In this document: piece after piece, positions 3,207 through 25,277 of the stretch
Layout of the letters: each line of letters opens with the position of its first letter
Numbering within the stretch: the stretch's first letter is position 1
Assembly: GCF_003149375.1 (NCBI RefSeq)
Contig: NZ_QFWH01000005.1
Coordinates: forward strand, 78,004-142,003
Source: Vampirovibrio chlorellavorus
GTDB lineage: Bacteria; Cyanobacteriota; Vampirovibrionia; Vampirovibrionales; Vampirovibrionaceae
Length of the DNA stretch: 64,000 nt
Reading direction: 5' to 3'
The notes under the pieces: model-generated
The model's input: the letters and a program-made list of their open reading frames with translations, nothing else
What the model was told of the DNA's origin: nothing
Databases searched by the model: none
Made by a program: the position numbers and the translations under genes

Positions 3207-3510
3207 TAAAGTTAACAAAGGGGCTAAAGCGCCTTGGGCAGGCATTTTGAGAGATTCACTTTGGGCGACGCCACCCCGAAGGATTGAAAACAGCGCTTTG
3301 AAAATACGGCATTTTCTGTACAATAGATGGCAGTTTGAGATCCTCACCCCCGGTTTAACGGTTCAGGCCCTTACTGACTCATGGGTGTTTCAATGGTTTC
3401 GTCACCCTGAAACAAGAGTCATAGCGCCGCTGGCTGTCTTGCTGATGACTCGAACCGCTCAACTGAAGTTTTTTCGACCACTTTTTCATACTGATATAGG
3501 AGAAGCGTTT

Positions 3511-5568: not shown

Positions 5569-5633
5569 CCCTCGGTTTCTGGCTGACAGGCCGCCAATGT
5601 TTTAAAACTTGCGAATAAAGGAGTTTTATCCCC

Positions 5634-9588: not shown

Positions 9589-10512
9589 TTAACCGGCGGC
9601 GCACTGTACGCCGGAATCCACGCCGTTGCCCGCGCCGCAGATCCCTTCCGCTTTGTAGTCGGTGAGATTGCTGATGATGTTTTCAGCCATGCTGCTGGTA
9701 GGCGCGTTGTAATCGGCAATATTGTAGGCCGCGATGTTGGTCAGGTCGCTGACCGAGAGGATCTGCTCCGATAAGATCTGCACTACATTGCGCAGTACCG
9801 GATCGTTCAATGCCCCGGTTCGCTCGGCGGAGGCGAACAGTTTCTGGAAGGCGGCGATCTCCGGGCAGGCGGTCGGATCGGTGAGGGGATCTGTCACCGC
9901 GTTGGGGTCCATAGAGGCGTTGTCATACCCAATTAGCGATGTAATGCCATCCAGGGTGTAAAATTTTCCGTTGAATTCAAACATACTGGCGCTGAACTCT
10001 GATGGCCTTCTGGAGTTCAGAGCCACGGTTTCAATGGCTTTTTGAATCTCGGCAATGCGGTGGCCCTGGTTGGATAGCGCTATCAGGGTGTTGAATTCAG
10101 ACTGGCTTATAGCGCCTTTCTCAAGCAGTTGTTGGGCTATGGACTTGAGGGTATTGGCCAGTGAATGCGTGGTTCCATTGGCCCCTGCGGTGAGGATTGA
10201 GGTGGAAAGATCCTGGGGATGATCGGGCAGTCGGATGGTGGTTCCATTCGACAGGGTGATTTGAATCTCTCCCGGTTGCAGCGGAGCCCCGGTTACCCCG
10301 CCCGTGGGAGAGGATGGGGTGCTGGTTCCGCCGGTGGTTTGCGCCGGTTTGGAGCCCAGCATATTTTTAAACAGGGTAGAGACGTTATCGCCAAGATTGG
10401 CCAAAGCGACGCAGGAGGCCCCCAGCACAATGGCCGCAATCAGGCCGTACTCGCTCAAGGCATTTCCTGCCAGCGGGCGGCCCAGTCTGGTTTTAGCGGA
10501 GCGATTCGACAT
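9589..10512 (-). CDS. Flp-type pilin with long C-terminal extension, 307 aa
   Basis: The N-terminus has a positively charged leader (MSNRSAKTRLGRPLAG), then NALSEYGLIAAIVLGASCVALANLG and VSTLFKNML. This matches the Flp/Fap pilin pattern: G at the prepilin peptidase site, Glu-Tyr at +5/+6 of the mature helix, and LG..S..F after it. Normal Flp pilins are 50-80 residues. Here about 240 residues follow, starting with a Thr/Ser/Gly/Pro linker (residues 57-80) and continuing as a mostly polar globular region of unknown family. No tad assembly genes or prepilin peptidase are in the window, so assembly must rely on distant genes. It may be a pilus-tip or adhesin-like minor subunit (inference). Confidence 0.7.
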   Translation of the reverse strand: MSNRSAKTRLGRPLAGNALSEYGLIAAIVLGASCVALANLGDNVSTLFKNMLGSKPAQTTGGTSTPSSPTGGVTGAPLQPGEIQITLSNGTTIRLPDHPQDLSTSILTAGANGTTHSLANTLKSIAQQLLEKGAISQSEFNTLIALSNQGHRIAEIQKAIETVALNSRRPSEFSASMFEFNGKFYTLDGITSLIGYDNASMDPNAVTDPLTDPTACPEIAAFQKLFASAERTGALNDPVLRNVVQILSEQILSVSDLTNIAAYNIADYNAPTSSMAENIISNLTDYKAEGICGAGNGVDSGVQCAAG

Positions 10513-10848: not shown

Positions 10849-11712
10849 ATGTATGGAGCAGGATTTTCCGGAATTCAATGTCCACTGCCAGGAATGAGCC
10901 GAGCCATGCGGCCACGGAGTATTGAGGAGCGTTACCCTGACTGGCCCACAACCGCGCCCTTGCCACTGGGTTCCCCGGAGGAGAAGGAGGCGCGTTGTAG
11001 CACCCTGCTTCGGCAGAAGTTGCAATCGCTGTGGCAGGCGCTAAACCGTCGTCTTTCGGCGATGGGTCTTAAAAAGAAGGCGTCTGTAACGGAGCTGATG
11101 TTGCTGCCCCTGGGGCCAGCCTCCCGGAAGCCCGTTTCTCGGAACGCAAACCCGCTTCGTTTTGGCGCGCCCACTCTGTACAAAACCCGGCAGATTCCCA
11201 TTCCCCAGCGTATTAATCTTGAAAAAAAAGTGGCGGTGGTCGATGAGTCCAACGGGCATGAGCTGGAGTTGTCCCAATATGGCAATTTAAGTGAGCATGG
11301 GGCTTTTTGGCTGAAAAACGTAATCGGCCTGACTCTGGGTACTTTGGGCCGGTCCCGTGCCCCGCAAAGAATTGGCAACACTGTGCCAGTAACCTTTTAT
11401 GCGCTGGATCTCGATGTTCCTTACGCCATCCGGCATACGGACACAGGAGAGGCCATTGCGGAGTATCTGTTGCAGGAGGCCATGCAGCAAGCCCGCAAGG
11501 CCAATTTACGCTTGCTAATCAAGCCGGAATCCGCCCAGCAAAGAAAAGACTACAAGCAATTGGGATTCGTCTCGCTGGAGAAAGCCTTGCAACGCTATGT
11601 CCCTCGGGATCAATCCAATCGCCCGCCCAGGGACATGCAAGGCTGGCTGGCCTACGACGGTTTTTTAGTGGGTTACCCTAGGGAGCGAATCGCTTCAGTA
11701 CAATCGCTGTAA
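10849..11712 (+). CDS. Hypothetical protein, 287 aa
   Basis: ATG 10849 (MYGAGFSGIQC) follows GGAGGGG with an 8-base spacer; an upstream start at 10786 lacks this. The first 100 residues are basic and low in structure. Residues about 180-250 alternate strands and helices (PYAIRHTDTGEAIAEYLLQE, ARKANLRLLIKPES, DYKQLGF). The helix followed by a ...QLGF ending weakly recalls the C-terminal half of a GNAT acetyltransferase, but no acetyl-CoA loop is obvious. It converges on fadN and overlaps its end by 35 bases. Confidence 0.6.
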   Translation: MYGAGFSGIQCPLPGMSRAMRPRSIEERYPDWPTTAPLPLGSPEEKEARCSTLLRQKLQSLWQALNRRLSAMGLKKKASVTELMLLPLGPASRKPVSRNANPLRFGAPTLYKTRQIPIPQRINLEKKVAVVDESNGHELELSQYGNLSEHGAFWLKNVIGLTLGTLGRSRAPQRIGNTVPVTFYALDLDVPYAIRHTDTGEAIAEYLLQEAMQQARKANLRLLIKPESAQQRKDYKQLGFVSLEKALQRYVPRDQSNRPPRDMQGWLAYDGFLVGYPRERIASVQSL

Positions 11713-14308
11713 AATCAGCCATCCAGCGCAGTTGCAGGGCATCCAGTCCAGTCAGGGGCTGCCCGGAAATCACCCGTTTGGCCAGTTTTGGAGTGCGGCG
11801 CGCCTGTCTCAAGTCATCCAGCGAATCGCTCACACGGCTGGGATCTTCTCGCAGGGGCTTGCCGCTTTTCAGGGTGTGGGCAATGCGTTTTTGGGTTTGC
11901 CGGGTTTGAATCAGCGATAAAAATTGTTCCCGCTCCAGTTGCAGCAGGTCGTTTTCAGAGACGGGCCGGGCGCTACTGGTTTGTCCGCCGGTTAATACCT
12001 CAGCCAGGGCGTCGGCCACCACCACATCGTGCCAGGTGGCATCCCCTTTGGCATAGAAATCATCAATGGCCATTCGCAGGGCCGCCTTGCCACTGGGCCC
12101 AGGCAAGCGATAGGTGCCGGGCTTGGGCGGCTGGTAATTGGGGACCAGCGAAAGCGCTTTGGCCTTGGCATCGGCCAGCACCCGATCCGGGTTCATACTG
12201 ATGCCGTCTGTCGGGTTACCCCACAGCTTGCTTTGGGCGTCCTGCGCCGAAGTGGACACGGCCAACTGGGGCATGAGAATGGCCTGAAAGGCTTTGCGCA
12301 CCGGGGGGATCACCCCACCTTTGCGGTTTGCTTCTTCCTGACACCGGGCCAGATAGCGAGCGCAGCCCCCCCAACCGGGGATGAGTCCCACGCCGCTTTC
12401 CACGAGCCCCATGTAGGTTTCGGCGTTGAGTTGCAGGGCATCGCAATGCAGCAAAATTTCGCAGCCGCCGCCAATGGCCATGCCGTTGGGGGCCCCCACC
12501 ACCGGGAAGGGGGCATAGCGCAGGGCGCTGAACACGCTTTGCCCCTGGTACACCAATAGCTCCACGGCCTTATACAGCCCCGCCCCAAACAGTTGACCCA
12601 AGCCGGTTTTCCGCATGAACGGATGGCGAATGAGCTGAAAGCCAGCGTCGATGAGGCCCAGATTGGCCCCCAACGAGAAGTTTTTTTCCGCGTTATAAAT
12701 GACCATGGCCTTGTAGCGGCTGGCATTGTCGCTCATGAATCGCACGCTGTCATTGATCACGTGCAGCACGGACGGGTCCAGGGTGTTCATTTTGGAATGA
12801 AATTCCAGACAGGTCACCCCATCGCCCAAATCCCACAGGCTGGCGGAATGATGGTGGGCTAAAACGTTTCGGCTGTGCTTGATTTCCCCAAAGTTCAGGC
12901 AGCCCGGTTGATCCGGTAAGGGAGCGTAGTCGGCCTGCTGGCGCTCAAAATCAAACACCAGCCGGGATAGTTTGCCGTCCATCGTTTTGTAAAACGGGCG
13001 ATTTTCAGCCAGTTTCAGGACCGGCGGCAGCGCAATGCCATCGGCTTGTACCCGCTGACAAAACCAGTCCACCCCCACCTGATCAATTTGCTCAAAGGGT
13101 CCCCAGTGGGCGTTGTACCCACCCCGCAGGGCGGCGTCCACATCGGCAATATCATCGGCGATTTCGGGAATCAGCGTGGCCGCATACAGCAGGGTATCCC
13201 GCACCACCACCCAGGCGAAGCGCCCATAGCGATCGTCCGTTTCAAACATGGCTTTGGGGCCCTGCTTACGAGCGGCTTTTACGCAGGCCAGCCTGGGTTT
13301 TTCCACCGGATAATAGTCCCCGTCGCTCAGGCGCACGGCCAATTTTTGTTTGCTGCCGTCCGGGTTTTTTCGCATCCGGTAAAATCCGCCGTGGGGGGCG
13401 TTGCGTCCTGTACAGCCCGCTTTCAGCAAATTCCCTACCAGGCTTAGCCCTTTTTCATGATCAAATTTGCGGAAGGCGTCATCGGCGGGCAGGGTTTTCA
13501 GCAGGCTTTCCGTCACCAGCGGAATAATGCCGATGCCCACCAGATCCAGCAGACCGAATATGCCCTCCTTGGGGTAGCCGATGGGCTTGCCCAGAATGGC
13601 GTCCACCCTTTCAATGGGCATGTCCTGCTCAATGGCCTCCGTAATGGCCCGAAACATGAAGTAAATGCCGATGCGATTGGCCAGAAAGGCCGGGGTATCT
13701 TTGCAGATAATCACGTTTTTACCCAGATGCACATCGCCGAAGGCTTGCATTCTCGGGGCAATGTCCGCATCGGTGTCCGGGCCGCTGACGATTTCCAGCA
13801 GGTGCATAAAGCGAGGCGGGTTGAAAAAATGGGTGATGATAAAGCGTTTTCTAAAGGCCTCCGAGCGTCCTTCAATGAGCGTTTCCAGCGGAATGGTGGA
13901 GGTGTTGGAGGCGATTACCGCCGTAGGTTTGCACAGGGTTTCCAGTCGGGCGTAAAGGGCCCGTTTGATGTCCAGATTCTCGATGATCACTTCCACTACC
14001 CAGTCGGCCTCGGCCACCGCTTCGGCCAGATGATCCTCCAGATTGCCGGGGGTAATGCGTTTGGCATTGTCCGGGTGCATGAAGCCAGCGTTCAGTGGAT
14101 CGGTTGCCGGGGTGGCTTTCAGCATGCGCTGGATGGCGTTGTTGGCGATGGCGTTTCGGGCAGCTGTATCTCCACTGGGGGCATTGGGCGGCACAATATC
14201 CAGCAGATACACCTGCACTCCGGCGTTGGCTAGTTGGGCGGCAATACCGGAACCCATGGCTCCCGCGCCCAGAACCGCCGCTTTTCGAATGAACGGTGTT
14301 TCCGCCAT
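11678..14308 (-). CDS. fadN: 3-hydroxyacyl-CoA dehydrogenase / enoyl-CoA hydratase, FadN type
   Basis: A bifunctional beta-oxidation enzyme that hydrates trans-2-enoyl-CoA and oxidises L-3-hydroxyacyl-CoA with NAD+. The dehydrogenase is N-terminal: the NAD loop is VLGAGAMGSGIAAQLANAG and the catalytic His lies in ITHFFNPPRFMHLLEIV. Two dehydrogenase C-terminal domains follow, then the crotonase domain at the C-terminus (PVVGAPNGMAIGGGCEILL, GLVESGVGLIPGWGG with the catalytic Glu). This order is that of Bacillus FadN, reversed relative to E. coli FadB. ATG 14308 (MAETPF) follows AGGATAGGAC; an upstream ATG 14350 is weaker. The length of 876 residues exceeds the usual roughly 790, with extra sequence at the C-terminus. 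It is the last gene of the beta-oxidation operon, 43 bases after fadA. Confidence 0.92.
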   Translation of the reverse strand: MAETPFIRKAAVLGAGAMGSGIAAQLANAGVQVYLLDIVPPNAPSGDTAARNAIANNAIQRMLKATPATDPLNAGFMHPDNAKRITPGNLEDHLAEAVAEADWVVEVIIENLDIKRALYARLETLCKPTAVIASNTSTIPLETLIEGRSEAFRKRFIITHFFNPPRFMHLLEIVSGPDTDADIAPRMQAFGDVHLGKNVIICKDTPAFLANRIGIYFMFRAITEAIEQDMPIERVDAILGKPIGYPKEGIFGLLDLVGIGIIPLVTESLLKTLPADDAFRKFDHEKGLSLVGNLLKAGCTGRNAPHGGFYRMRKNPDGSKQKLAVRLSDGDYYPVEKPRLACVKAARKQGPKAMFETDDRYGRFAWVVVRDTLLYAATLIPEIADDIADVDAALRGGYNAHWGPFEQIDQVGVDWFCQRVQADGIALPPVLKLAENRPFYKTMDGKLSRLVFDFERQQADYAPLPDQPGCLNFGEIKHSRNVLAHHHSASLWDLGDGVTCLEFHSKMNTLDPSVLHVINDSVRFMSDNASRYKAMVIYNAEKNFSLGANLGLIDAGFQLIRHPFMRKTGLGQLFGAGLYKAVELLVYQGQSVFSALRYAPFPVVGAPNGMAIGGGCEILLHCDALQLNAETYMGLVESGVGLIPGWGGCARYLARCQEEANRKGGVIPPVRKAFQAILMPQLAVSTSAQDAQSKLWGNPTDGISMNPDRVLADAKAKALSLVPNYQPPKPGTYRLPGPSGKAALRMAIDDFYAKGDATWHDVVVADALAEVLTGGQTSSARPVSENDLLQLEREQFLSLIQTRQTQKRIAHTLKSGKPLREDPSRVSDSLDDLRQARRTPKLAKRVISGQPLTGLDALQLRWMADFTAIVLKRFAP

Positions 14309-14351
14309 AGCCAGTCCTATCCTTTCAGTGATTTGTTGTGAGCTGCGCATT

Positions 14352-15530
14352 CTAGCTGATGTTGGGGTTTTCCAGCACGATAGCCACCCCCTGGCCGCCG
14401 CCGATACACATGGCGGCTAAGCCGTAGCGTTGGCCGGTGCGTTGCAGCAGTCGGGCTACCTTACCGGTAATGCGGGCCCCGGAGGCTCCCAGTGGATGAC
14501 CCAAGGCAATGGCCCCGCCATCCCGATTGAGTTTGTTTGCATCCACCGCTAAACCCAGCCGATCCAGTTCCTGCAAGACGGCCAGAGTCTGTACGGCGAA
14601 GGCCTCGTTCAACTCCACCACGCCGATGTCTTGCATGCTTAATCCGGCGCGTTGTAGCGCTTTCTGGATGGCATTGACCGGGCCAATGCCCATAATTTCC
14701 GGTTCGCAGCCAGACCCGGCAAAGGCCTTGATGCGGGCCAAAATTGGCAGTTGATGTTCTTGGGCGTATTCCTGAGAGGCCAGCACCACCAGCGAGGCCC
14801 CATCAGTATGCGGAGAGGAGGTTCCGGCGGTCACTGTGCCATCCTGCAAAAAGGCCGGTTTCAGCTTTTGCAACTGCTCCAGCGAGCTATCGGGGCGCAC
14901 GCTGTCATCCAAGGACAACCCTGCCAGAGGCATGATTTCATCGTCAAAATGCCCTTGCTGTTGGGCTTGGGCCGCTTTTTGATGGGACTGCAAGGCAAAG
15001 GCTTCCTGAGCGGCCCGGTCAATCTGGAATTGGGCGGCCAGATTCTCGGCGGTGATGCCCATGTTCATAAAGCCTTTGGCGTTGCCCCCATAGACTTTGG
15101 GGTTGAGCATGGGGTTCCACCCGGCCATGGGAATGCGGCTGATGGACTGCACCCCGGCGCACAGCATGACTTCTGCTTCTCCGGCCCCGATGGCGTTTTT
15201 GGCATCGGCGATAATGTGCATGGACGATCCACAAAAACGATCCACACTGATCCCGCCTACGCTGTGCGGCAACCCGGCCTCCGGGTTCAGCACAATCATG
15301 CGGGCCAGATTCAGCCCTTGCTCGGCCTCCTGATGCACACAGCCCAGCAGCAGGGCTTCCACATGATTGGGATTGATACCGGTGCGTTTGAGGCTTTCGG
15401 CAATGAGGGCGGCCACCATGTCATCCGGTAATAAACTGGCGAACTTTCCCTGTTTGGGGCTGCCGGAGGTGGGTTCCACGGCCTTGGCAAAGGGGGTGCG
15501 CAAATAATCGACAATGACGGCCTGCTTCAT
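14352..15530 (-). CDS. fadA: Acetyl-CoA acyltransferase (3-ketoacyl-CoA thiolase)
   Basis: This thiolase cleaves 3-ketoacyl-CoA with CoA to acetyl-CoA and a shortened acyl-CoA. All three catalytic signatures are visible: the nucleophile Cys in VDRFCGSSMH (about residue 90), the His in GGAIALGHPLGASGAR, and the second Cys in AAMCIGGGQG near the C-terminus. At 392 residues it is standard length. ATG 15530 overlaps the stop of the FadE-FadD gene as ATGA, showing translational coupling. It is the middle gene of the beta-oxidation operon. Confidence 0.95.
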   Translation of the reverse strand: MKQAVIVDYLRTPFAKAVEPTSGSPKQGKFASLLPDDMVAALIAESLKRTGINPNHVEALLLGCVHQEAEQGLNLARMIVLNPEAGLPHSVGGISVDRFCGSSMHIIADAKNAIGAGEAEVMLCAGVQSISRIPMAGWNPMLNPKVYGGNAKGFMNMGITAENLAAQFQIDRAAQEAFALQSHQKAAQAQQQGHFDDEIMPLAGLSLDDSVRPDSSLEQLQKLKPAFLQDGTVTAGTSSPHTDGASLVVLASQEYAQEHQLPILARIKAFAGSGCEPEIMGIGPVNAIQKALQRAGLSMQDIGVVELNEAFAVQTLAVLQELDRLGLAVDANKLNRDGGAIALGHPLGASGARITGKVARLLQRTGQRYGLAAMCIGGGQGVAIVLENPNIS

Positions 15531-18500
15531 GATGCCTGCTCCATATCCAGCCCTTCGTTGATATCGGTAATCACGTGTTCTCCGTGCGGAAATTCAGTCA
15601 GCTTTTCCCGTTCCTGCATGGCCCGCCAGTCGGGCTTGCCCACCGGGGTTTTGGGAAGTTCGAACGGGACAAATTCCACGTGCCGGGGTAGCTCAATGCG
15701 GCTGAGGTATTCGCCCAGAAAGTCTTTCAGCTGTTGGGCGTTCAGGTGCTGGCCGTGCTTGAGTCGGACGAAAGCCTTGGCCGCCTCCCCGGATCGAGGA
15801 TCGGGCACACTGATGACCATACACTCGGCCACCGCCGGATGCCGGGCAATGGCCTGCTCCAGCTGGGTGGGGTAGACGTTAAAGCCATTCACCAGAATCA
15901 GGCGCTTTTTGCGGTCCACGATGTGCAGATAATGATCAGCATCCAGATACCCCAAATCACCGGTGAAGAACCAGCCGTTTCTCAGGCTCTGCTCGGTTTC
16001 CTCCGGGCGTTGATAGTAGCCTTTCATCACCTGTGGGCCGCTGATGCAGATTTCTCCCACTTCGCCCATGGCCAGCACCCGATCCGGATCCTGGGGATCC
16101 ACGATTTGAATGCGGGTTTGGGGCAGGGGCAGTCCAATGGATTCCGGTTTGTTGATGCCAAAGGGCGGATTGGCCGCCGCCACCGGGGCCGTTTCCGTGA
16201 GTCCGTAGCCCTGCTTAATCAGTCCCGGCTTGCCGGTCACCTGCTCAAAGGCCTGATGGACAGCCAGGGGAATGGCCGCCCCCCCGGAGATGACCGTTTG
16301 CAGACTGCTGAGGTCATATTGGCGCAGTTTGGGATGCTCACAAATGGCCTGAAGCAGCCGGGGAACCGCCGGGAACAGGGTGGGCTTTTTCTCGTGAATG
16401 GTCTTCAGGGTTTCCGTAATGTTACGCGGATCAGGCAGGATGATCAGCTCCGCGCCCATTTTCAGGCTGGAGAGCATGGCCACGGTCAGCCCGAAAATAT
16501 GGAAGTAGGGGATGGTGGCCAACACCCGCTCTTGTCCCGGCCGGAGCAAGGCTTCACACTGGGGTTTGTTGGCGGAGAAGCCAAAGAACTCCTCAATCTG
16601 GCAAATATTGGCTACCAGATTGGCATGCGTCAGCATGGCCCCTTTGGGCGTGCCAGTGGTCCCGCCGGTATACTGCAACAAGGCCACATCCTGGGGATCA
16701 ATAGGCACGGGCTGTAGCTTGTGCTTGCTGTGGATGAGATCCCGAAAGCCCAGTCGCAGGCCGGAGGCGGAAACTCCCGCTCCGACTTCCTGATCGCCTT
16801 TGCCCGCTTTGCCGCTTTTTTCCCATGCGTCCGCGCGGACAATGTGCGAACTGCGGAACAGCCGGTAAGCGTGTGACTTGAAGAAGGGCAGCACCGCTTC
16901 CATTTTGCATACGATCATTCGGGACAGCAGACCTTCATCCAGCAGTTGGGCCGTTTTGTTGAAGGCATCCTTCAGATCCAGGGTAATCAGGGTTTTCGTA
17001 CCGCTGTCCGCCACTTGCTCCCGCAATTCGCTCAGGGTGTGCATGGGGCAGACGTTCACCACCACGGCTCCCACTTTCAGGGCGGCAAAAAACAGGATGG
17101 GATAATATGGGGTGTTGGGCATGTACAGGCCGATGCGATCGCCCTTTTGAATGCCCAGACCTTGCAGCCCGGCGGCGGCCCGGTTCACCAGACTGCCCAT
17201 TTCCCCGTAATCGTACTTTTTACCCAGGGAATCCATGCAGGGCAAATGCCGGTATCGATCCACGGCGGCTTCAAATAATTCGACCAGATTTTGGTTGGGC
17301 AGCTCAAGATCCCAGCGGGTTCCCAGTGGATACACCGTCTTTAGCTGGCTCCCGCCGACAAATGCCGTTTTTTTTTCCAGGAGGTTGAAGTGAAGGTCAA
17401 AATCATCAACGGCCAAGACCTGTTTTCGTAACACTTCCACCTGCTTGAGCAAGGCCCGTTCCTGGGCGCTGATGATTTTCTGGGCGGCGGCTTCCTCCAG
17501 CAAGGTCTCTGGCGTTTGGGCGCTCAGGCGGCCTTCCTTTTTGGCTTGGCGAATGGTGGCTTCCAGCACGTCGGCTTGCACGGCCATGCCCATGCACTGC
17601 TCCAGTTGGGCCAGAGGTTCGTGTTCGCTGGTGGGTAAGTAAATGCCCTGAGTGAGTCGATCCCGTAGCATGCCGGGGGTGACCAGCATTTGGGCCAGCT
17701 TGCGATCCTGACGGTGGCTGGGCAGCTGAATGCGTCGACCCAGCGGGAAAATGATGGGTCGCAGTAAGGCTCCCAGTATCGGGTTGGGGAAGTTTTGCAA
17801 CAGGCGATCCATGGCCTCTTCCGCTTGGTGCAGCAAAGTCTGGCAAGCCCAATGCACCAGCGGCCGTTCATCCTGAAGGCGCCCGTGAGCCTGATAGTGC
17901 CGTAAGACGGCGGAGGCCATAAACAGGTAGCTCATGGCATCACCCAGCAGGGCGGAAATGCGCTCCTTGCGTTTGACGCTATCACCCAGCAGCATCAGGA
18001 TGTTATCGGCCAACGTGGCGTAGGCGGCGCTGAGGCGGTTGATGTGCCGGAAGTAATAGGCCTCGGTTTGATCGGCGTTGGGCACCCCGCTGCCGTGTCC
18101 GTTGGTCAGACCAAAAATCAGGCTGCGGACCGTGTTTTCCACGCTGTGCCGCACATGTTGGGCCATCAGATCGCTGAACTGGGCCCGGGCCTCCTGTTCA
18201 TTCTCCAGACGGGCCGCCTCGATTTCCTTGAGCAGGTAGGGATGCGAGCGCACCGAGCCTTGCCCGAAGATGATCATGTTGCGGGTCAGAATATTGGCCC
18301 CTTCCACGGTAATGCCGATGGGAATGCCGTGATAGAGGGGGGCGATCAGGTTATCCGGCCCATCACAAATGGCTTTTCCGCCCAGCACGTCCATGCCGTC
18401 GTTGACGATTTTGCGCCCGTACTCGGTCATGTGGTACTTCAGGATGGCCGACAAAATGGTGGGATGTTCCCCCCGATCCAGCATTTGCAGGGTGGCGATG

Positions 18501-19747
18501 CGGCAGGCTTCCATGAGGTAGGTAGTGCCTGCCATGCGGGCCAGTAGCTCTTCCACGCCTTCAAACTGGTTGATGGATACCTTGAATTGCTTGCGAACCC
18601 GGCTGTAAGCCCCGGTCAGGCGGCTGACCAGTTTGACCGATCCCACTGACAGGGCGGGCAGGGAAATACAGCGCCCCACCGAGAGGCACTCCATCAGCAT
18701 GCGCCAGCCTTGCCCGGCGTATTCCCGGCCCCCGATGATTTGATCCAGCGAGATCCACACGTCTTTGCCGTGGGTGGGGCCGTTCATAAAGGGAATGCCC
18801 AGCGGGTTGTGACGGCGGCCAATTTCCACGCCCGGGGCGTGGGTGGGGATGAGGGCCAGGGTGATGCCCAGCTCTTTTTTCTGGCCCAGTAGGCAGTCTG
18901 GGTCTCGCAGTTTAAAGGCCACCCCCAACAGGGTGGCAATGGGGCTAAGGGTGATGTAGCGTTTGTCCCAGTTCAGCACAATGCCCAGTTGACCATCCCG
19001 CTCCGTGACTATGCCGTGGGCGGTCATGCTGGAGGCGTCGGAGCCGGCCTCGGGTTCGGTCAGGGCAAAGGAGGGGATCTCTTCCCCTTTGGCCAAACGG
19101 GGCAGGTAATGATTTTTTTGTTCGTCCGTGCCATACCGAATCAGCAACTCCGCCGGGCCCAGCGAATTGGGCACCATGGTGGTCACACAGGCGGTGGTGC
19201 TGCGGCTGGCCAGCTTCAAGACCACCTCCGAATGAGCCCGAGCGGAAAAACCCAGTCCGCCATACTCCTTGGGAATGATCATGCCGAAGAAGCCTTTTTC
19301 TTTCAAAAAGGCCCAGGCCTCGGGCGGTAAGTCATACAGTTCCGTCCTGATTTTCCAGTCATCCAGCAGGGCGCACAGTTGTTCCACCGGCCCATCCAGA
19401 AAGGCCTGCTCGATTTCGTTCAGGTGCGGTTTGGGCAGATCCAGCAGCTTGCGCCAGTCCGGGTGCCCACTCAGGATTTCTCGCTCAAAGCCCACGGAGC
19501 CGGAGGCCAGCGCCTCTTTTTCGGTATCGGAGATCTTGGCCTTCCGGGTGCCCTGAAAGGCCTGATCCCGCAGGGGGGCCATGACCGTGTACACCAGCAG
19601 TTTGTAGAAGGCGTGGATGGGCGAAAGATTGCTAGGCATGATGGCACTTCCCACTTTCATGTTAGTCAGGTCGTGTGCTGAATCGGGTTTGGCGTAAGAC
19701 TCGTTTGTTTTTGGAGAGGCAGGCGTGGCTGAGTCCTGGCATCCCAT
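15527..19747 (-). CDS. fadE-fadD: FadE-FadD fusion: acyl-CoA dehydrogenase plus long-chain acyl-CoA ligase, 1406 aa
   Basis: Residues about 40-805 closely follow E. coli FadE in order and wording. Examples are DGPVEQLCALLDDW, GFFGMIIPKEYGGLGFSA, VPNSLGPAELLIRYGTDEQK, FALTEPEAGSDASSM, ITVEGANILTRNMIIFGQGS, and the FadE C-terminal domain ending VDDFDLHFN. Residues about 830-1400 are an AMP-forming fatty acyl-CoA ligase. The P-loop is YTGGTTGTPKG near residue 1024, followed by GYGLTETAPV, FTGDLGYLDAD and DRKKRLILVNGFNVYP. So activation and the first oxidation step sit on one chain. The two N-terminal membrane helices of E. coli FadE are missing. ATG 19639 (MPSNLSP), with GGGAAG 7 bases upstream, is an alternative start. 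The stop overlaps fadA as ATGA. Confidence 0.93.
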   Translation of the reverse strand: MGCQDSATPASPKTNESYAKPDSAHDLTNMKVGSAIMPSNLSPIHAFYKLLVYTVMAPLRDQAFQGTRKAKISDTEKEALASGSVGFEREILSGHPDWRKLLDLPKPHLNEIEQAFLDGPVEQLCALLDDWKIRTELYDLPPEAWAFLKEKGFFGMIIPKEYGGLGFSARAHSEVVLKLASRSTTACVTTMVPNSLGPAELLIRYGTDEQKNHYLPRLAKGEEIPSFALTEPEAGSDASSMTAHGIVTERDGQLGIVLNWDKRYITLSPIATLLGVAFKLRDPDCLLGQKKELGITLALIPTHAPGVEIGRRHNPLGIPFMNGPTHGKDVWISLDQIIGGREYAGQGWRMLMECLSVGRCISLPALSVGSVKLVSRLTGAYSRVRKQFKVSINQFEGVEELLARMAGTTYLMEACRIATLQMLDRGEHPTILSAILKYHMTEYGRKIVNDGMDVLGGKAICDGPDNLIAPLYHGIPIGITVEGANILTRNMIIFGQGSVRSHPYLLKEIEAARLENEQEARAQFSDLMAQHVRHSVENTVRSLIFGLTNGHGSGVPNADQTEAYYFRHINRLSAAYATLADNILMLLGDSVKRKERISALLGDAMSYLFMASAVLRHYQAHGRLQDERPLVHWACQTLLHQAEEAMDRLLQNFPNPILGALLRPIIFPLGRRIQLPSHRQDRKLAQMLVTPGMLRDRLTQGIYLPTSEHEPLAQLEQCMGMAVQADVLEATIRQAKKEGRLSAQTPETLLEEAAAQKIISAQERALLKQVEVLRKQVLAVDDFDLHFNLLEKKTAFVGGSQLKTVYPLGTRWDLELPNQNLVELFEAAVDRYRHLPCMDSLGKKYDYGEMGSLVNRAAAGLQGLGIQKGDRIGLYMPNTPYYPILFFAALKVGAVVVNVCPMHTLSELREQVADSGTKTLITLDLKDAFNKTAQLLDEGLLSRMIVCKMEAVLPFFKSHAYRLFRSSHIVRADAWEKSGKAGKGDQEVGAGVSASGLRLGFRDLIHSKHKLQPVPIDPQDVALLQYTGGTTGTPKGAMLTHANLVANICQIEEFFGFSANKPQCEALLRPGQERVLATIPYFHIFGLTVAMLSSLKMGAELIILPDPRNITETLKTIHEKKPTLFPAVPRLLQAICEHPKLRQYDLSSLQTVISGGAAIPLAVHQAFEQVTGKPGLIKQGYGLTETAPVAAANPPFGINKPESIGLPLPQTRIQIVDPQDPDRVLAMGEVGEICISGPQVMKGYYQRPEETEQSLRNGWFFTGDLGYLDADHYLHIVDRKKRLILVNGFNVYPTQLEQAIARHPAVAECMVISVPDPRSGEAAKAFVRLKHGQHLNAQQLKDFLGEYLSRIELPRHVEFVPFELPKTPVGKPDWRAMQEREKLTEFPHGEHVITDINEGLDMEQAS

Positions 19748-20082: not shown

Positions 20083-20778
20083 CTAGGTCAACAATGTGGA
20101 TAAACCGGCCAGCCACGGGGAGCGACCCACCCGATTTTTCCCTTTTAAGACCCCGGCCACCAGATCATCGGCGGTTTCCGGCGGGCTGAGCTTGACTTTG
20201 CGATCCAGCCGTTTGGCCAGTTCCGCCTGCAGGTGAGAGGGAGCCCGCTGTGGAAAGACCAGACTCATAGAGAGAGCCGATTTCTGTTGCTTGAAGGCTC
20301 GGGCCTGCGCTTCGCACCAGGTCCACAGGGCCCCCTGACTGGCGCTGAAGGGGCCCAATCCGGGCAAGCCGAGCCGCCCATTTTGCCCCAGATAGACCCC
20401 CACACAGCCTGCCTCCTGTTGTTCCATTCGGGCGCAGGCTTCTTGCAGGAACCGGGTGGATTGCACCACGTTGACCCGCAACATGCGCTCAAAGTCCTCA
20501 TCGTAAATACCCACGCAATGAAACACCGCTTGCGGCGCTGGCACCTCGCTCAGGATACTGGGCCAGTCCTCAGATTCCAGATCAAAGGGCTGCCAAAACA
20601 GACTTTTTTGCTGGGCCATGGCCCACTCCGGCAGATCTTTGGGCTCCTGCCGACTGAGGGCGATGACCTGCCAGTTCAGGCGCAGCAGAGTCATAACCGT
20701 TTTGCGGCCCCAGTATCCACTGGCTCCGCTGACCCAGGCGATTCCCGGATTGTGATAAAGATTTGGCTTGGTTGGCAT
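20083..20778 (-). CDS. SDR-fold protein lacking the catalytic triad
   Basis: A 231-residue Rossmann-fold protein of the short-chain dehydrogenase family. The nucleotide loop is present (VSGASGYWGRKT, residues about 15-26), as are VFHCVGIYD and the helix region of the active site. At that region, where classical SDRs read like ISS...LPGLAAYSASKGAL, this protein reads YLGQNGRLGLPGLGPFSASQGAL across residues about 129-151. The catalytic Ser, Tyr and Lys are thus replaced by Gly, Phe and Gln. Oxidoreductase activity by the usual mechanism is not expected; a binding or scaffold role is possible. It is the last gene of the lipid operon, 49 bases after the methyltransferase. Confidence 0.8.
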   Translation of the reverse strand: MPTKPNLYHNPGIAWVSGASGYWGRKTVMTLLRLNWQVIALSRQEPKDLPEWAMAQQKSLFWQPFDLESEDWPSILSEVPAPQAVFHCVGIYDEDFERMLRVNVVQSTRFLQEACARMEQQEAGCVGVYLGQNGRLGLPGLGPFSASQGALWTWCEAQARAFKQQKSALSMSLVFPQRAPSHLQAELAKRLDRKVKLSPPETADDLVAGVLKGKNRVGRSPWLAGLSTLLT

Positions 20779-20827
20779 AAACAGGCAAACTCATGTTGGG
20801 GTTATCAGGAATTTATTGGCGGACTAA

Positions 20828-21583
20828 CTATTGGCGTACTAGGGTGCCCACGGCGAAAAAGTCATTGCGTTCCAGTTTCTCCAGCGTCCAGCCATGCGCT
20901 TTGGCCCAGTCGGCCAACTGCTCGGCGGGACGAGGCACCAGTTCCCAGCGCTGCTGATGCAGATCGACCATGGTTTCCTTCAGCAGACGCAAATCAGGGT
21001 GATGCTCCTGAATGGTGAATACCCAGCGGGCCCCCGGCTGAGTGATTCTGGAGCCGTTTTCCAGCACTTTCAGGATCTCTTCCTCTTTCACCAGAATGTC
21101 AAAAAAACCGGAGCTGACCAGAATATCAGCCTGCTGGCAGGCCAGTTCGTTCGCCTCAAAGGCATTGCTTTGCTGGAAGCTGATATCGGTTCGTCCCAGT
21201 GTTTGGGCCTTTTGCTGGCCCTGGGCTACCGCTTCCGGGGCGAAATCTCCGGCGATGATTTGGGCTTGGTTGGGCGGCAGGGCAAACAGATACGAGCCAA
21301 CGCCCGCAGCGAAATCAAACACAACAGGGTTAGCATAACGGGTTAAAGCCTCCTCCAGTTGGCCAATCAGCAGAGTCCGGCGGGAGCGCACCCCGTCCCA
21401 CACCGGGTGAGAAATGAATTGACGATCCACCCAAACGCCCAGGGGCGTGGTGCCTCGGGGCTGGTTTTCGTAAATGTACTCCAGCATGACCCCGGAGTCA
21501 AAGCCGGTGCGCCAGCCCAGCCGAATGCCTTCACTCAGGCGACCGACGGTTTGCAACAGGATGCGGGTGAGCCGATATTTCAA
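20828..21583 (-). CDS. Class I SAM-dependent methyltransferase, YnbC-C-terminal-like
   Basis: 251 residues. The start is TTG 21583 with AGAGGA 7 bases upstream. The SAM-binding motif I is VVFDFAAGVGSYLFAL (about residue 90), followed by IIAGDFAPEA (motif II), QADILVSSGFFDIL and GARWVFTIQEHH. The N-terminal 85 residues (LLQTVGRLSEGIRLGWRTGFDSGVMLEYIYEN) match the style of the putative-methyltransferase domain fused to a hydrolase in E. coli YnbC. Here the hydrolase half is absent. The position in a phospholipid-type operon suggests a lipid headgroup or acyl-chain substrate; this is inference from context. Confidence 0.8.
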   Translation of the reverse strand: MKYRLTRILLQTVGRLSEGIRLGWRTGFDSGVMLEYIYENQPRGTTPLGVWVDRQFISHPVWDGVRSRRTLLIGQLEEALTRYANPVVFDFAAGVGSYLFALPPNQAQIIAGDFAPEAVAQGQQKAQTLGRTDISFQQSNAFEANELACQQADILVSSGFFDILVKEEEILKVLENGSRITQPGARWVFTIQEHHPDLRLLKETMVDLHQQRWELVPRPAEQLADWAKAHGWTLEKLERNDFFAVGTLVRQ

Positions 21584-21637
21584 GGTTTAGTCCTCTGAAA
21601 AAATCTTTTAAAAAATTCCTGAATCGGGGCCCCGCCG

Positions 21638-22675
21638 TTAGAGGGCCGTATAACTCTCTGCCAGCCATTGAGTCACGGTTTTAAGCTGTCCCATGGGGTT
21701 AAAGACATGGGGAGACAGCCGCACGTAATCGCCCCGCTGGGTGACGATAATTTTGCGACTTTGGGCGTTTTTCACCAGTAGTTCCGCCCGCCCCGGCCCC
21801 GGATCGATGGACACAATGCCGGACCAGCGCTTGGGGCAGGAAACCACGTGCCAGCCCATATCCAGCAGACGCTCATGCAGGTAGTTGCGGCGCTGTTTGA
21901 CTTTTTCCGTAATGCTTTCCCAGCCGACTTTGGAAAAATAATCCAGATTACTCTCCAGTCGGGCCAGGGCCGCCTGACTGATCCAGCCGCATTCCCAGGC
22001 CCGGGCGGTCTCCAGCAATCCCGAGTCTACTTTGCCCGTTTCTTTCAGGCTCAGCCAGTTGGGAAACGGCGGCTGTAACTGCTTCAGCACCCGGGGGCTC
22101 AGCACCAAAATGGCCAGACCGGTGCCGGAGACCAGCCATTTTTGGGTGCCCGCGCACCAGAAATCAATATCCGGGTGCCAGCTGGGCAGCACCCCCGCCG
22201 ATTGAATGGCGTCTACGCAGGTCCAGATGCTCCGGGCCTGCGCTTGCAGAATCACCTCTCGCCAGGGTTGCTCGATGCCGGTGGCGTAATTGACGCTGGA
22301 GATGCTAACCATGCGGGTGCGGCTGGGCCAGGACTCCTGCCAGTTGTCCACGGCCACCGGGTTCACCCCGAAGCGGGCCAGTTTTTCCCAGGGCAGCACG
22401 TTGGCCGGAAAATCGTGGGGGTTGTAAAGCACCCCATCGCCCGGTTGCCAGTTCAGGCTGTAAGCGGCGCTGTACAAGGCCATGCTGGTAGAGGGCACAA
22501 AGGCCACCTGATCGGCGTGGCAGCCCAGCCAGTGGGCCACTTTATCCCGCAAGCGTTCCGCCTGGGCAAACCACTGGGGCAGGCGGACATTACCGAACAG
22601 TTCCGGGGCCAGCAGGCCGTTCAGGTAAGCGCCGAAGCGTAACGGGGCCATACCCGCGTAGTTCATGTAAATCAT
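21638..22675 (-). CDS. Class V PLP-dependent aminotransferase / cysteine desulfurase-like enzyme
   Basis: 345 residues from ATG 22675, which overlaps the preceding stop as ATGA; an upstream start at 22783 is therefore rejected. Fold type I features are visible: PSTSMALYSAAY for phosphate binding, VDAIQSAGVLP with the cofactor-contacting Asp, and the Schiff-base Lys in CAGTQKWLVSG (about residue 195). The C-terminal small domain contains VTQRGDYVRLSPHVFN. The active-site Cys loop of cysteine desulfurases is not seen. A role as an amino-acid lyase or aminotransferase supplying or modifying an amine headgroup fits the neighbouring lipid genes but is not proven. No iscU or sufU is nearby. Confidence 0.82.
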   Translation of the reverse strand: MIYMNYAGMAPLRFGAYLNGLLAPELFGNVRLPQWFAQAERLRDKVAHWLGCHADQVAFVPSTSMALYSAAYSLNWQPGDGVLYNPHDFPANVLPWEKLARFGVNPVAVDNWQESWPSRTRMVSISSVNYATGIEQPWREVILQAQARSIWTCVDAIQSAGVLPSWHPDIDFWCAGTQKWLVSGTGLAILVLSPRVLKQLQPPFPNWLSLKETGKVDSGLLETARAWECGWISQAALARLESNLDYFSKVGWESITEKVKQRRNYLHERLLDMGWHVVSCPKRWSGIVSIDPGPGRAELLVKNAQSRKIIVTQRGDYVRLSPHVFNPMGQLKTVTQWLAESYTAL

Positions 22676-23325
22676 TGGGGAGAGCCCGTTGTTTGGGAGG
22701 AAGCCGCACTCAGATCCAGACCGTAAATTTCCCGAATGGAACGATAAACCCGCAGGCCAATGGTCAGGGCGCACCCGGCGCACATCAGGGGAACCAATGT
22801 CGGCCAGACGTTTACCTTAAAAAGGGCCAGCAGGCAGCCCAGCATTAAAATGGCCAGGCGATCGGTTTGCCCACAGGGGCCCACGGACTGGGTGGAGCCC
22901 CCGGCGGCCAGCCCTAGCAATCCGAATACTTGCACCCAGCCGGTCAGGATGATCAGGGGCAGTATCCAGTGCATGGGGGCATGCGGGTACAGGGCCAATA
23001 CAATCAGGACGTCGGTGAACTCGCCGGGCAGGCGGTTCAGGTAGCCGCCGATGTGCGTTTTTTTATCGAACTCTTCGGCCACCAGCCCGTCCAGGGTATT
23101 GATGATCATGCGTCCGGCAATGCTCAGCAGGGCCCCCAGCCACTCGCCCTCAAACAAAAACACGGCAGCCAGCAGTCCCGGTCCCAACCCGGCGATGGAA
23201 AGCAAATTGGGGGAGAGTTTGCCAATGCCCGGGAGGGTGCGTAGCACCTTGCGTAACAGGTACTTGGTCTGGTACAAGCCCAAATCGGGCTTGATGACGG
23301 GATCGGCGGGGGCTTGCTTACTCAT
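22672..23325 (-). CDS. CDP-alcohol phosphatidyltransferase-family membrane protein with degenerate motif
   Basis: 217 residues with about six membrane segments. The CDP-alcohol signature D-x2-D-G-x2-A-R-x8-G-x3-D-x3-D is recognisable but altered: it starts N-TL-D-G-LV-A-E and continues after eight residues with G, Asn where the third Asp should be, and Gly where the catalytic fourth Asp should be. Asn at the first and third positions also occurs in E. coli YnbA (from memory), but loss of the Arg and the fourth Asp goes further. The enzyme may use a different acceptor or mechanism, or be inactive. The start overlaps the plsC-like gene by 8 bases and the stop overlaps the aminotransferase as ATGA. 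Confidence 0.82.
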   Translation of the reverse strand: MSKQAPADPVIKPDLGLYQTKYLLRKVLRTLPGIGKLSPNLLSIAGLGPGLLAAVFLFEGEWLGALLSIAGRMIINTLDGLVAEEFDKKTHIGGYLNRLPGEFTDVLIVLALYPHAPMHWILPLIILTGWVQVFGLLGLAAGGSTQSVGPCGQTDRLAILMLGCLLALFKVNVWPTLVPLMCAGCALTIGLRVYRSIREIYGLDLSAASSQTTGSPQ

Positions 23326-23986
23326 GCGGGTACAACTCTCGTTCCAGTTTCTCTATTAAACAGTCTATGTCATGCCCTTGAAAAGGCTCATAAAAAGTAA
23401 CTTTTAAACGACGAAAGGGACGCCACAGAGGGGCATGGCTGGGCCAGGCCGCATCGGCCCCTTCCAGTCGGGCGGGCAGAATCTGCCAGCCTTCTTTCAG
23501 CAGTATCTTCAATAATCCGGCCTGTATGCTTGTAGAATGCCGACTGCCACTGGGATAAAACAGCAACCAGCCCCGCTCCAGATTTTTGAGGTGCTGATAC
23601 CAGGCCCGCACGGCGGTCCAGTGAAGTCGATCAAAGGCTACGGCCTGACAGAGCAGGGAAGCGGCCATGGCTTTGGGGGCGTTGTTGAAAAAGTAATCCT
23701 GAGCGGCCAGCACCACGGTTTGTTGTCTGCGGGCGTAGGGCAGGGCGGCCAACAGGGTGGCCGTATCCAGGTGGGATTGATGGTTGGCCACAATGGCCAG
23801 CCGATCGCTGTCTGGCAAGCGCCCCACCACGCTTAAGGGGAATTGGGTACGAATGAACAATACACTCAGCCAGCTGCCCAGCCAGCGCAAAAAGTCCCAG
23901 CTTAAATCGGGGACGCGGGGATAGTTCCCCAGCCGTTGCCGCAGGGGTTGCCCAAAGTCCCGGGTGCGCTGATACTCAAATTTCAC
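23318..23986 (-). CDS. PlsC-family 1-acyl-glycerol-phosphate acyltransferase-like protein
   Basis: The start is GTG 23986, which overlaps the stop of the 52-codon ORF as GTGA; longer readings to 24151 are rejected. The 222-residue protein has the acyltransferase motif I NHQSHLDT (NHx4D) and a hydrophobic N-terminal segment (FLRWLGSWLSVLFI). Motif III, normally FPEGTRS, reads YPSGSRHS, so the usual Glu is Ser. The family moves acyl groups from acyl-ACP or acyl-CoA to lysophospholipids at the inner membrane. Its place between CdsA-like and CDP-alcohol enzymes matches the ynb-like clusters of other bacteria. Confidence 0.85.
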   Translation of the reverse strand: MKFEYQRTRDFGQPLRQRLGNYPRVPDLSWDFLRWLGSWLSVLFIRTQFPLSVVGRLPDSDRLAIVANHQSHLDTATLLAALPYARRQQTVVLAAQDYFFNNAPKAMAASLLCQAVAFDRLHWTAVRAWYQHLKNLERGWLLFYPSGSRHSTSIQAGLLKILLKEGWQILPARLEGADAAWPSHAPLWRPFRRLKVTFYEPFQGHDIDCLIEKLERELYPHE

Positions 23987-24141
23987 AACGGGGCCCCCGG
24001 TCGGTGGATGAGGGGTTCGGGCCGCAGGGGTGGGCCATGCTCGGTTTGCTTCAGGATGACCCGCCGCACGGCGTGGGTGACCGGATTGGGGGTCTCCACC
24101 CGATAGCGGTCCGTCACGCTGGCTTCCCGAACGTTCCCCAT
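23983..24141 (-). CDS. 52-residue ORF translationally coupled on both sides
   Basis: ATG 24141 overlaps the cdsA-like stop (TAATG), and its TGA overlaps the plsC-like GTG start (GTGA). The frame exactly fills the 150-base gap that the two enzymes would otherwise leave. The product begins MGNVREASVTDRYRVETPN and ends EPLIHRPGAPL. It is polar, basic and Pro-rich, with no membrane segment and no recognised family. The double stop-start overlap is the main evidence that it is a gene rather than a spacer. It might help couple translation of the flanking lipid enzymes. Confidence 0.6.
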   Translation of the reverse strand: MGNVREASVTDRYRVETPNPVTHAVRRVILKQTEHGPPLRPEPLIHRPGAPL

Positions 24142-25169
24142 TAGCAGCCAAACCCGGAATGAAAGTAACGGGCCATGTGGAAAAACAGGGGCGACACCCA
24201 CACCAGACTGTCCACCCGATCCAGAATGCCCCCGTGACCGGGTAACAGGGTGCCGAAGTCCTTCACTCCCAAATCCCGTTTGAAGGTGGACATGACCAAA
24301 TCGCCCATCTGGCCGCCAAAACTGACCGCAAATCCGGCCATGGCCACCAGCCACCATTCAAAATGCGGAAACGCGATGGGCCAGTTCAAAAAGGCGATAA
24401 CCATACTACTGAGCAGTGCCAGCACGGAGCCTTCAATAGTCTTTTTGGGGGAGATGGCCGTAAAATGGGTTTTGCCGAAGAGCTTGCCCCACAAAAAGCA
24501 CATGGCGTCGTTGAACTGGGTAAAAATCAGCACAAACAGCAGATAGCCCAACCCGTATTCGGAACGCACCAGAAAGCCCAGATGCCCTAAAAACCACCCA
24601 AAATAAACCAGCCCCACCACGGACAGGGCCATATTCTGGATGGCGTTTTCAAAACGATTCTGGAAGACGGGAATGGTGCTCAGGGCCACCACCCCCCAGA
24701 TGGGGGCCACCATAAACAGGCCGTAATCGTTGATCATGGCACAGACGGCCATGGCGATCATGACAACATAGACGGTCAGGCAATGCGCTTTTTGTGCGTA
24801 CAGTCCGGTGCCTTTGGCGAATTCCTTGAAGCCGTAAATGGAAATCAGCAGCACGGTGAGAATCCAGAACACCGGGCCCAGCCACAGGGGCAGCATCAGC
24901 AGAGGGATCATGATGGCCCAGGTCAGGTAGGGCTTTTTGGCCACTTCCAGCGGTTTTAACCAGATGAAGGCCCCCAGAATGGCATACAGGGATAGCACCA
25001 GCGCCGTGTAAAAGGCCAGTACGTTAAAGTGAGGGTTTCCCACGGTCAGGGTTTCCAAAAACGGCCACATCTGTGCGGTGCTTTCCTTTATGGTGCTTTC
25101 CAGGCCGGTAACCACTACGACGAAGGCAAAATGCCACAGGGCGAGAGCGGTATTTGCCTGCCAGCGCAA
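24141..25169 (-). CDS. Phosphatidate cytidylyltransferase (CdsA/YnbB-like)
   Basis: An integral membrane enzyme expected to make CDP-diacylglycerol or a related CDP-lipid from CTP and phosphatidate. The CdsA signature is intact in the C-terminal part: STFKRDLGVKDFGTLLPGHG followed by GILDR. About eight to nine hydrophobic segments are visible, with FNDAMCFLWGKLFGKT and SPKKTIEG as family blocks. A TTG start at 25229 opens the frame further, but a TATAAT promoter lies inside that extension. TTG 25169 with GAGG 5 bases upstream is preferred and gives 342 residues. This is probably not the housekeeping CdsA but the first enzyme of the lipid operon. Confidence 0.88.
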   Translation of the reverse strand: MRWQANTALALWHFAFVVVVTGLESTIKESTAQMWPFLETLTVGNPHFNVLAFYTALVLSLYAILGAFIWLKPLEVAKKPYLTWAIMIPLLMLPLWLGPVFWILTVLLISIYGFKEFAKGTGLYAQKAHCLTVYVVMIAMAVCAMINDYGLFMVAPIWGVVALSTIPVFQNRFENAIQNMALSVVGLVYFGWFLGHLGFLVRSEYGLGYLLFVLIFTQFNDAMCFLWGKLFGKTHFTAISPKKTIEGSVLALLSSMVIAFLNWPIAFPHFEWWLVAMAGFAVSFGGQMGDLVMSTFKRDLGVKDFGTLLPGHGGILDRVDSLVWVSPLFFHMARYFHSGFGC

Positions 25170-25197
25170 ACGGCCCTCACCTGCCTCTACAGATTTT

Positions 25198-25227
25198 ATT
25201 ATACGCCCTGAGGGGTTCGGCTGTCTC
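25198..25227 (-). promoter_or_regulatory. Promoter of the lipid operon
   Basis: On the minus strand GAGACA (25227-25222) and a perfect TATAAT (25203-25198) are 18 bases apart. Transcription would start near 25191, upstream of the TTG start at 25169, separating this operon from the CHAP-domain gene. Confidence 0.5.
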
Positions 25228-25277
25228 AATGCACTGTGGCGCCGGGCAAAGCGGTTTGCAAACTACTGAAGACAATA

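Follow-up and report, generated by a model that had tools for sequence, protein, structure and literature searches.

A FadE-type acyl-CoA dehydrogenase joined to an AMP-forming acyl-CoA ligase at the head of a beta-oxidation operon in Vampirovibrionaceae

A single open reading frame in the window (the whole 64,000-nucleotide stretch that was analysed) encodes, from N- to C-terminus, a full acyl-CoA dehydrogenase of the FadE type, a variable stretch of about 20 residues and a complete AMP-forming acyl-CoA ligase. Judged by its domains, conservation and gene neighbourhood, the protein is likely to be a bifunctional fatty-acid-degrading enzyme particular to the Vampirovibrionaceae, with its two presumed activities tethered at a fixed 1:1 ratio. 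Activating and oxidising enzymes are thereby joined in Vampirovibrio, a small predatory group that is related to cyanobacteria but non-photosynthetic. The features are as follows:

15527..19747, minus: FadE-FadD fusion ORF, 1406 codons; probable true start at ATG 19639 (M37), 1370 aa
18272..19360, minus: acyl-CoA dehydrogenase core (N, M and C domains), residues 130-492 (Pfam; predicted fold like ACAD9 and VLCAD)
18302..18304, minus: invariant Glu482 in ITVEGANILTR (alignment)
17399..18253, minus: FadE-specific ACDH_C (PF09317), residues 499-783 (Pfam, 7e-97)
17324..17389, minus: linker after the conserved VDDFD, residues ~787-808, variable and predicted disordered
16013..17275, minus: AMP-binding large domain, residues 825-1245 (Pfam, 1e-93; Foldseek)
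16640..16672, minus: P-loop YTGGTTGTPKG, residues 1026-1036, nearly every position invariant
15635..15862, minus: AMP-binding_C small domain, residues 1296-1371, ending at the invariant A10 Lys1371 (Pfam, alignment)
14352..15530, minus: acetyl-CoA C-acyltransferase (thiolase), second gene (Pfam; TIGR01930 above cut-off)
11678..14350, minus: FadN-like 3-hydroxyacyl-CoA dehydrogenase/enoyl-CoA hydratase, 890 aa, third gene (Pfam, NCBIfam)

The fusion frame and its two halves

The frame runs from an ATG at 19747 to a stop codon at 15527-15529 without any internal stop, in agreement with the coordinates and length given by the sequence-only reading, which had left out the strand (minus). Acyl-CoA_dh_N, Acyl-CoA_dh_M, Acyl-CoA_dh_1, ACDH_C, AMP-binding and AMP-binding_C follow one another in this order, all above their Pfam gathering cut-offs. 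That FadE and the ligase share one chain, as had been proposed, is borne out by the single open frame, the intact motifs, their conservation and the selection acting on both halves.

The first methionine common to the window protein and its V. chlorellavorus counterpart is M37 (ATG at 19639). Upstream of M37, M30 is not conserved and the frame is shifted, as judged by eye on the sequences, by a length difference of 1 nt from V. chlorellavorus. GGGAAG precedes the M37 codon, and GAGGAAG or GGGAAGG stands before the aligned ATG in two distant loci (L035 and L109). On these grounds we place the start at M37; the first ~36 residues would probably remain untranslated, leaving a likely product of ~1370 residues. 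Scans for promoters and terminators gave no clear excess over shuffled sequence.

In the FadE half, Pfam places Acyl-CoA_dh_N at residues 130-222, _M at 226-322 and _1 at 345-492, and these ACAD N, M and C domains together with ACDH_C identify the half as FadE. Residues 71-786 match the NCBIfam FadE subfamily model NF007000 with 1034 bits (cut-off 600), and the half exceeds the cut-offs of two FadE-type subfamily models. Glu482 (TVEGANILTR) is invariant across 20 aligned sequences, at the position that we take to be that of the ACAD catalytic base. ACAD9 and VLCAD are structural matches of the predicted FadE part; among solved structures, only more distant ACADs were found for FadE. The claim that this half corresponds to E. 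coli FadE over its whole length apart from the membrane part also held, the N-terminal hydrophobic segment being all that is missing. The peak 19-residue hydropathy near the N-terminus is 1.16 in the fusion versus 2.18 in E. coli FadE, and neither hydropathy nor the alignment with E. coli FadE reveals a transmembrane-like segment at the N-terminus of the fusion. This segment lies outside the curated FadE domain models, and the lack of it is compatible with membership.

The C-terminal half contains both the AMP-binding and the AMP-binding_C domain, the P-loop, YGLTE and the A10 lysine, which makes it an AMP-forming acyl-CoA ligase of the ANL superfamily and confirms the earlier statement that all AMP-forming motifs are present. 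The P-loop and the A5 and A10 motifs are kept in all fusion orthologues that cover them. Among the matches listed, the ligase half falls below every NCBIfam cut-off (best 431 bits versus 869), and it is assigned neither to FadD (NF006523, 383 bits versus a cut-off of 884) nor to the dicarboxylate ligase PimA (TIGR03205, 419.7 bits versus 705.6).

Because the PimA model scores almost as high as the long-chain ligase models (420 bits versus 431 and 430), a substrate other than an ordinary fatty acid is conceivable. The ligase half could then serve other acids (dicarboxylates, aromatic or branched acids), to which FadE would have adapted as well; PimA is among the best NCBIfam matches, the nearest ligase relatives are alphaproteobacterial, and 4-coumarate-CoA ligases are the best structural matches of the predicted ligase half (Foldseek, E=1e-53), besides other ANL enzymes. 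We regard this as quite unlikely, since all models stay below cut-off and the long-chain ones score slightly higher than PimA, since the FadE half lies above two FadE-type cut-offs, and since structural matches mirror what was crystallised more than the substrate. Medium- and long-chain monocarboxylates are the presumed substrate class.

Conservation, distribution and origin of the fusion

The junction at residues ~786-808 is read through in five Vampirovibrionaceae genomes (G000, which contains the window, G004, G001, G007 and G003), the other four having 63-94% identity to the window fusion; the protein of V. chlorellavorus NCIMB 11383 (L001) is 93% identical. The fusion is intact in G000, G004 and G001 from the same genus and in G007 from another genus of the family (66%). 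In G003, a contig ends within FadE, and a second piece starts at residue 526, spans the junction and stops close to the end; in G002, the contig edge falls at residue 600, inside the FadE half. Of the five genus members sampled, four thus retain the junction, the fifth being G002, whose contig ends before it; a second genus retains it too. The sampled Vampirovibrionaceae genomes yielded no split version.

In comparison with V. chlorellavorus, dN/dS is 0.033 for the ACAD core, 0.069 for the FadE C-terminal domain and 0.137 and 0.057 for the ligase. These low values (0.03-0.07 for FadE, 0.06-0.14 for the ligase) indicate that both halves are maintained. For the linker dN/dS amounts to 0.45 (27-residue linker region, versus V. 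chlorellavorus) and 0.85, and its length varies between orthologues, yet it is short (~20 residues) in all. An assembly or frameshift artefact joining two genes, a concern of the sequence-only reading, might be suspected as the majority of the genomes are metagenome assemblies. With the junction open in five genomes, four of them at 63-94% identity, and flanked on both sides by sequence under purifying selection, the probability of such an artefact is negligible; since independent genomes read through the junction, we treat the fusion as real.

FadE-domain (PF09317) searches covered six phyla and ~1,500 genomes, a FadE-ligase fusion needing ~1300 or more residues. PF09317 was found in 10 of 339 Cyanobacteriota genomes, where no frame but that of the window is longer than 907 residues. 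It was further matched in 181 of 399 genomes of Pseudomonadota (longest frame among the matches listed, 1067), in 69 of 192 of Bdellovibrionota (above cut-off; longest 973), in 42 of 198 of the phylum of Longimonas (longest 1030), in five of 199 of Acidobacteriota and in four of 198 of the phylum of a Geobacteraceae locus. No other fusion-length FadE chain appeared in these searches (for Pseudomonadota, among the matches listed), nor was the fusion found in other sampled Vampirovibrionia. Outside the Vampirovibrionaceae, all FadE proteins found in the sampled phyla are unfused, in keeping with the earlier remark that these enzymes are separate in known systems.

A peptide-pattern scan of 84,980 species genomes, which reaches relatives sharing the chosen peptide, returned the fusion in Vampirovibrionales only, and no plasmid record covers 80% of the fusion query. 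The literature within our scope, which mostly excluded subscription papers and InterPro/UniProt architecture counts, yielded no description of a FadE-ligase fusion. On this sequence evidence, absence of the fusion elsewhere is well supported but not proven, because the samples are partial and the pattern scan is limited to peptide-sharing relatives.

Several candidates were rejected. In the Gallionella, Ectothiorhodospiraceae and KW1-S15 loci both halves were matched, by separate frames with ligases only ~25% identical. None of the long FadE frames from other loci (up to 1067 aa) has room for both a dehydrogenase of ~720 aa and a ligase of ~580 aa, and those of L131 and L132 are upstream stop-to-stop extensions.

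Beta-oxidation is, to our knowledge, usually thought to be missing in Cyanobacteriota. Nine other genomes from the sample of 339 (G058, G062, G068, G077, G108, G230, G238, G256 and G375; loci L094 and L096-L099) encode FadE-type proteins without a ligase-sized extension.

The FadE halves of the fusions form one clade (100/100) on a long stem, with no resolved sister and outside the oxygenic cyanobacterial FadE; cyanobacterial inheritance of FadE was rejected for this separation from the other FadE proteins of the phylum. The ligase halves likewise form one clade (SH-aLRT 100), nearest to two alphaproteobacterial ligases (SH-aLRT 99; quick tree), and the stem under the fusion clade is long and bare on both trees. 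In other genomes, where fadE is unfused, a thiolase gene is often close by and a ligase gene sometimes, which offers a plausible route to the fusion: in Arsenicitalea (L036), one of the two alphaproteobacterial genomes, ligase and fadE are divergent neighbours, and in L017 fadE is followed by a thiolase and later by a ligase. As the halves have different relatives, neither of them close to oxygenic cyanobacterial FadE, the simplest reading is that the fusion probably arose once in the Vampirovibrionaceae, within an acquired or rearranged beta-oxidation operon.

A chance intergenic deletion might also have joined two enzymes that still act independently, the fusion persisting neutrally or for expression balance only. 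The proximity of FadE and ligase genes in several unrelated genomes, the flexible, relaxed linker and the restriction to one family are consistent with such an event, whereas a junction kept in four of five genomes of the genus (the G002 contig ending in FadE) and in a second genus, with no split version, speaks against it. We hold this to be a possible explanation, though not the one that we expect.

Operon and genome context

The fusion heads a three-gene operon in which it is followed by the thiolase and the FadN-like hydratase/dehydrogenase, together a complete beta-oxidation set; its stop codon and the thiolase start overlap by 4 nt (ATGA). This order is kept in L001, L035 and L109, and in L110 as far as the contig reaches. 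In the distant L035 and L109, the three-gene unit is all that is shared with the window neighbourhood, the flanking genes being different. Genes for a 3HCDH-ECH protein, a thiolase and an acyl-CoA dehydrogenase thus lie adjacent on one strand, as in an operon of the fadNAE type.

The FadN-like protein is divergent, Pfam recognising only ~65 residues of its hydratase domain. Among the matches listed it reaches no NCBIfam cut-off, the best being Staph_FadB (NF052272, 449 bits versus 999).

The genome encodes two ETF-alpha and two ETF-quinone oxidoreductase (ETF-QO) proteins, so that an electron route exists. Despite the operon, ETF and ETF-QO, no FadL/Toluene_X homologue was found in the whole genome (G000). 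Further ligases and short-type ACADs are present, and the fusion therefore need not be the main route.

Upstream of the operon, 20083-25229 (minus) holds a lipid-type gene run conserved in V. chlorellavorus (short-chain dehydrogenase, Methyltransf_20, class V aminotransferase, CDP-alcohol phosphatidyltransferase, acyltransferase and cytidylyltransferase). On its other side, 9589-10512 (minus) encodes a 307-aa protein with no Pfam match, of which V. chlorellavorus has two tandem relatives (L001:16143-18213; 64% and 51% identity). Elsewhere in the window, pyruvate:ferredoxin oxidoreductase is encoded by two adjacent genes (3247-7271, plus), and a polysaccharide-type cluster (59449-63939, minus) comprises two neighbouring GNAT-fold proteins in overlapping frames, a glycosyltransferase and a flippase-like protein.

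Proposed function and relation to known systems

The C-terminal ligase half would convert free fatty acid, ATP and CoA to acyl-CoA, and the N-terminal FadE half, with FAD as cofactor, would oxidise acyl-CoA to trans-2-enoyl-CoA, probably passing electrons to ETF/ETF-quinone oxidoreductase. The thiolase and the FadN-like hydratase/dehydrogenase would finish the beta-oxidation turn. The fusion itself may have formed by the joining of neighbouring beta-oxidation operon genes in the family ancestor, probably once. That activation and first oxidation are co-expressed and co-localised at 1:1 is well grounded, and the putative benefit is a stoichiometric one: a short flexible tether would hold the ligase beside the dehydrogenase, with no sealed channel.

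Modelled alone, the ligase half folds well (pLDDT 79.9, pTM 0.79). A 1200-residue model (pTM 0.62) renders the FadE part well and the ligase part poorly, displays no domain interface and, given the poor ligase part, is silent on the mutual orientation of the two active sites; the linker is of low confidence in both models, with pLDDT < 50 around it. In these predictions, the linker would suit a flexible tether no less than a channel. Putative true channelling, in which acyl-CoA from the ligase would reach the FadE site without leaving the protein, would suit consecutive reactions on one chain and a ~20-residue linker that stays short in all orthologues, but the linker is variable and predicted disordered, and the 1200-residue model, with its poorly modelled ligase, has no interface; we think it unlikely. 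It is similarly doubtful that the protein is a self-contained 'activate-and-oxidise' enzyme through which free fatty acids, such as those from digested algal membrane lipids, would enter beta-oxidation while their acyl-CoA stayed apart from the cell pool. If it were, the fusion would physically demonstrate that FadD and FadE are natural partners.

A natural fusion retained across a whole family hints, in the 'Rosetta stone' sense, that FadE and the activating ligase operate next to each other. The sequence-only reading had called the separate enzymes membrane-associated, which is only partly right: FadD is cytosolic, with an expected association with the inner membrane, while the location of FadE is described as essentially unknown (PMC9329746). 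The same review lists the interaction of FadBA with FadD and FadE and the cellular organisation of the beta-oxidation enzymes as open questions (PMC9329746), which is why a natural fusion is useful: the FadD-FadE partnership could be measured in a single protein that has no obvious membrane helix, and that is also a candidate for FadE structural work and for the engineering of fatty-acid degradation. Beta-oxidation receives no more than a general mention in published work on V. chlorellavorus (PMC4451040).

E. coli FadE (NF007000/PRK09463, PF09317) shares domain order, length and the catalytic Glu region with the fusion over residues 71-786 (~52% identity over residues 50-784). It differs in its N-terminal hydrophobic segment, which the fusion lacks, and in the short C-terminal tail after VDDFD, where the fusion carries the ligase. 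With FadD and long-chain acyl-CoA ligases (ANL: PRK07059, PRK05605, PimA) the fusion has complete AMP-binding and AMP-binding_C domains and all motifs in common; it carries GKPDWR instead of the usual C-terminal GKILRR, and the closest free-standing relative found is only ~38% identical to its ligase half. In B. subtilis, fadNAE is an operon of a 3HCDH-ECH protein, a thiolase and an acyl-CoA dehydrogenase. This operon and those of staphylococcal FadB (FadN-type) hold the same gene set as the fusion operon, whose dehydrogenase, in contrast, is of the large FadE type and carries a ligase. An acyl-activating enzyme is also paired with an ACAD by the FAAL and ACAD genes of daptomycin-related lipopeptide clusters (PMC9113097); these genes are separate and biosynthetic, and they work on ACP-bound chains without passing through acyl-CoA, whereas the fusion would be degradative. 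Fusion of consecutive enzymes is of a known kind, and the FadE-ligase case is, in the genomes sampled, specific to the Vampirovibrionaceae lineage.
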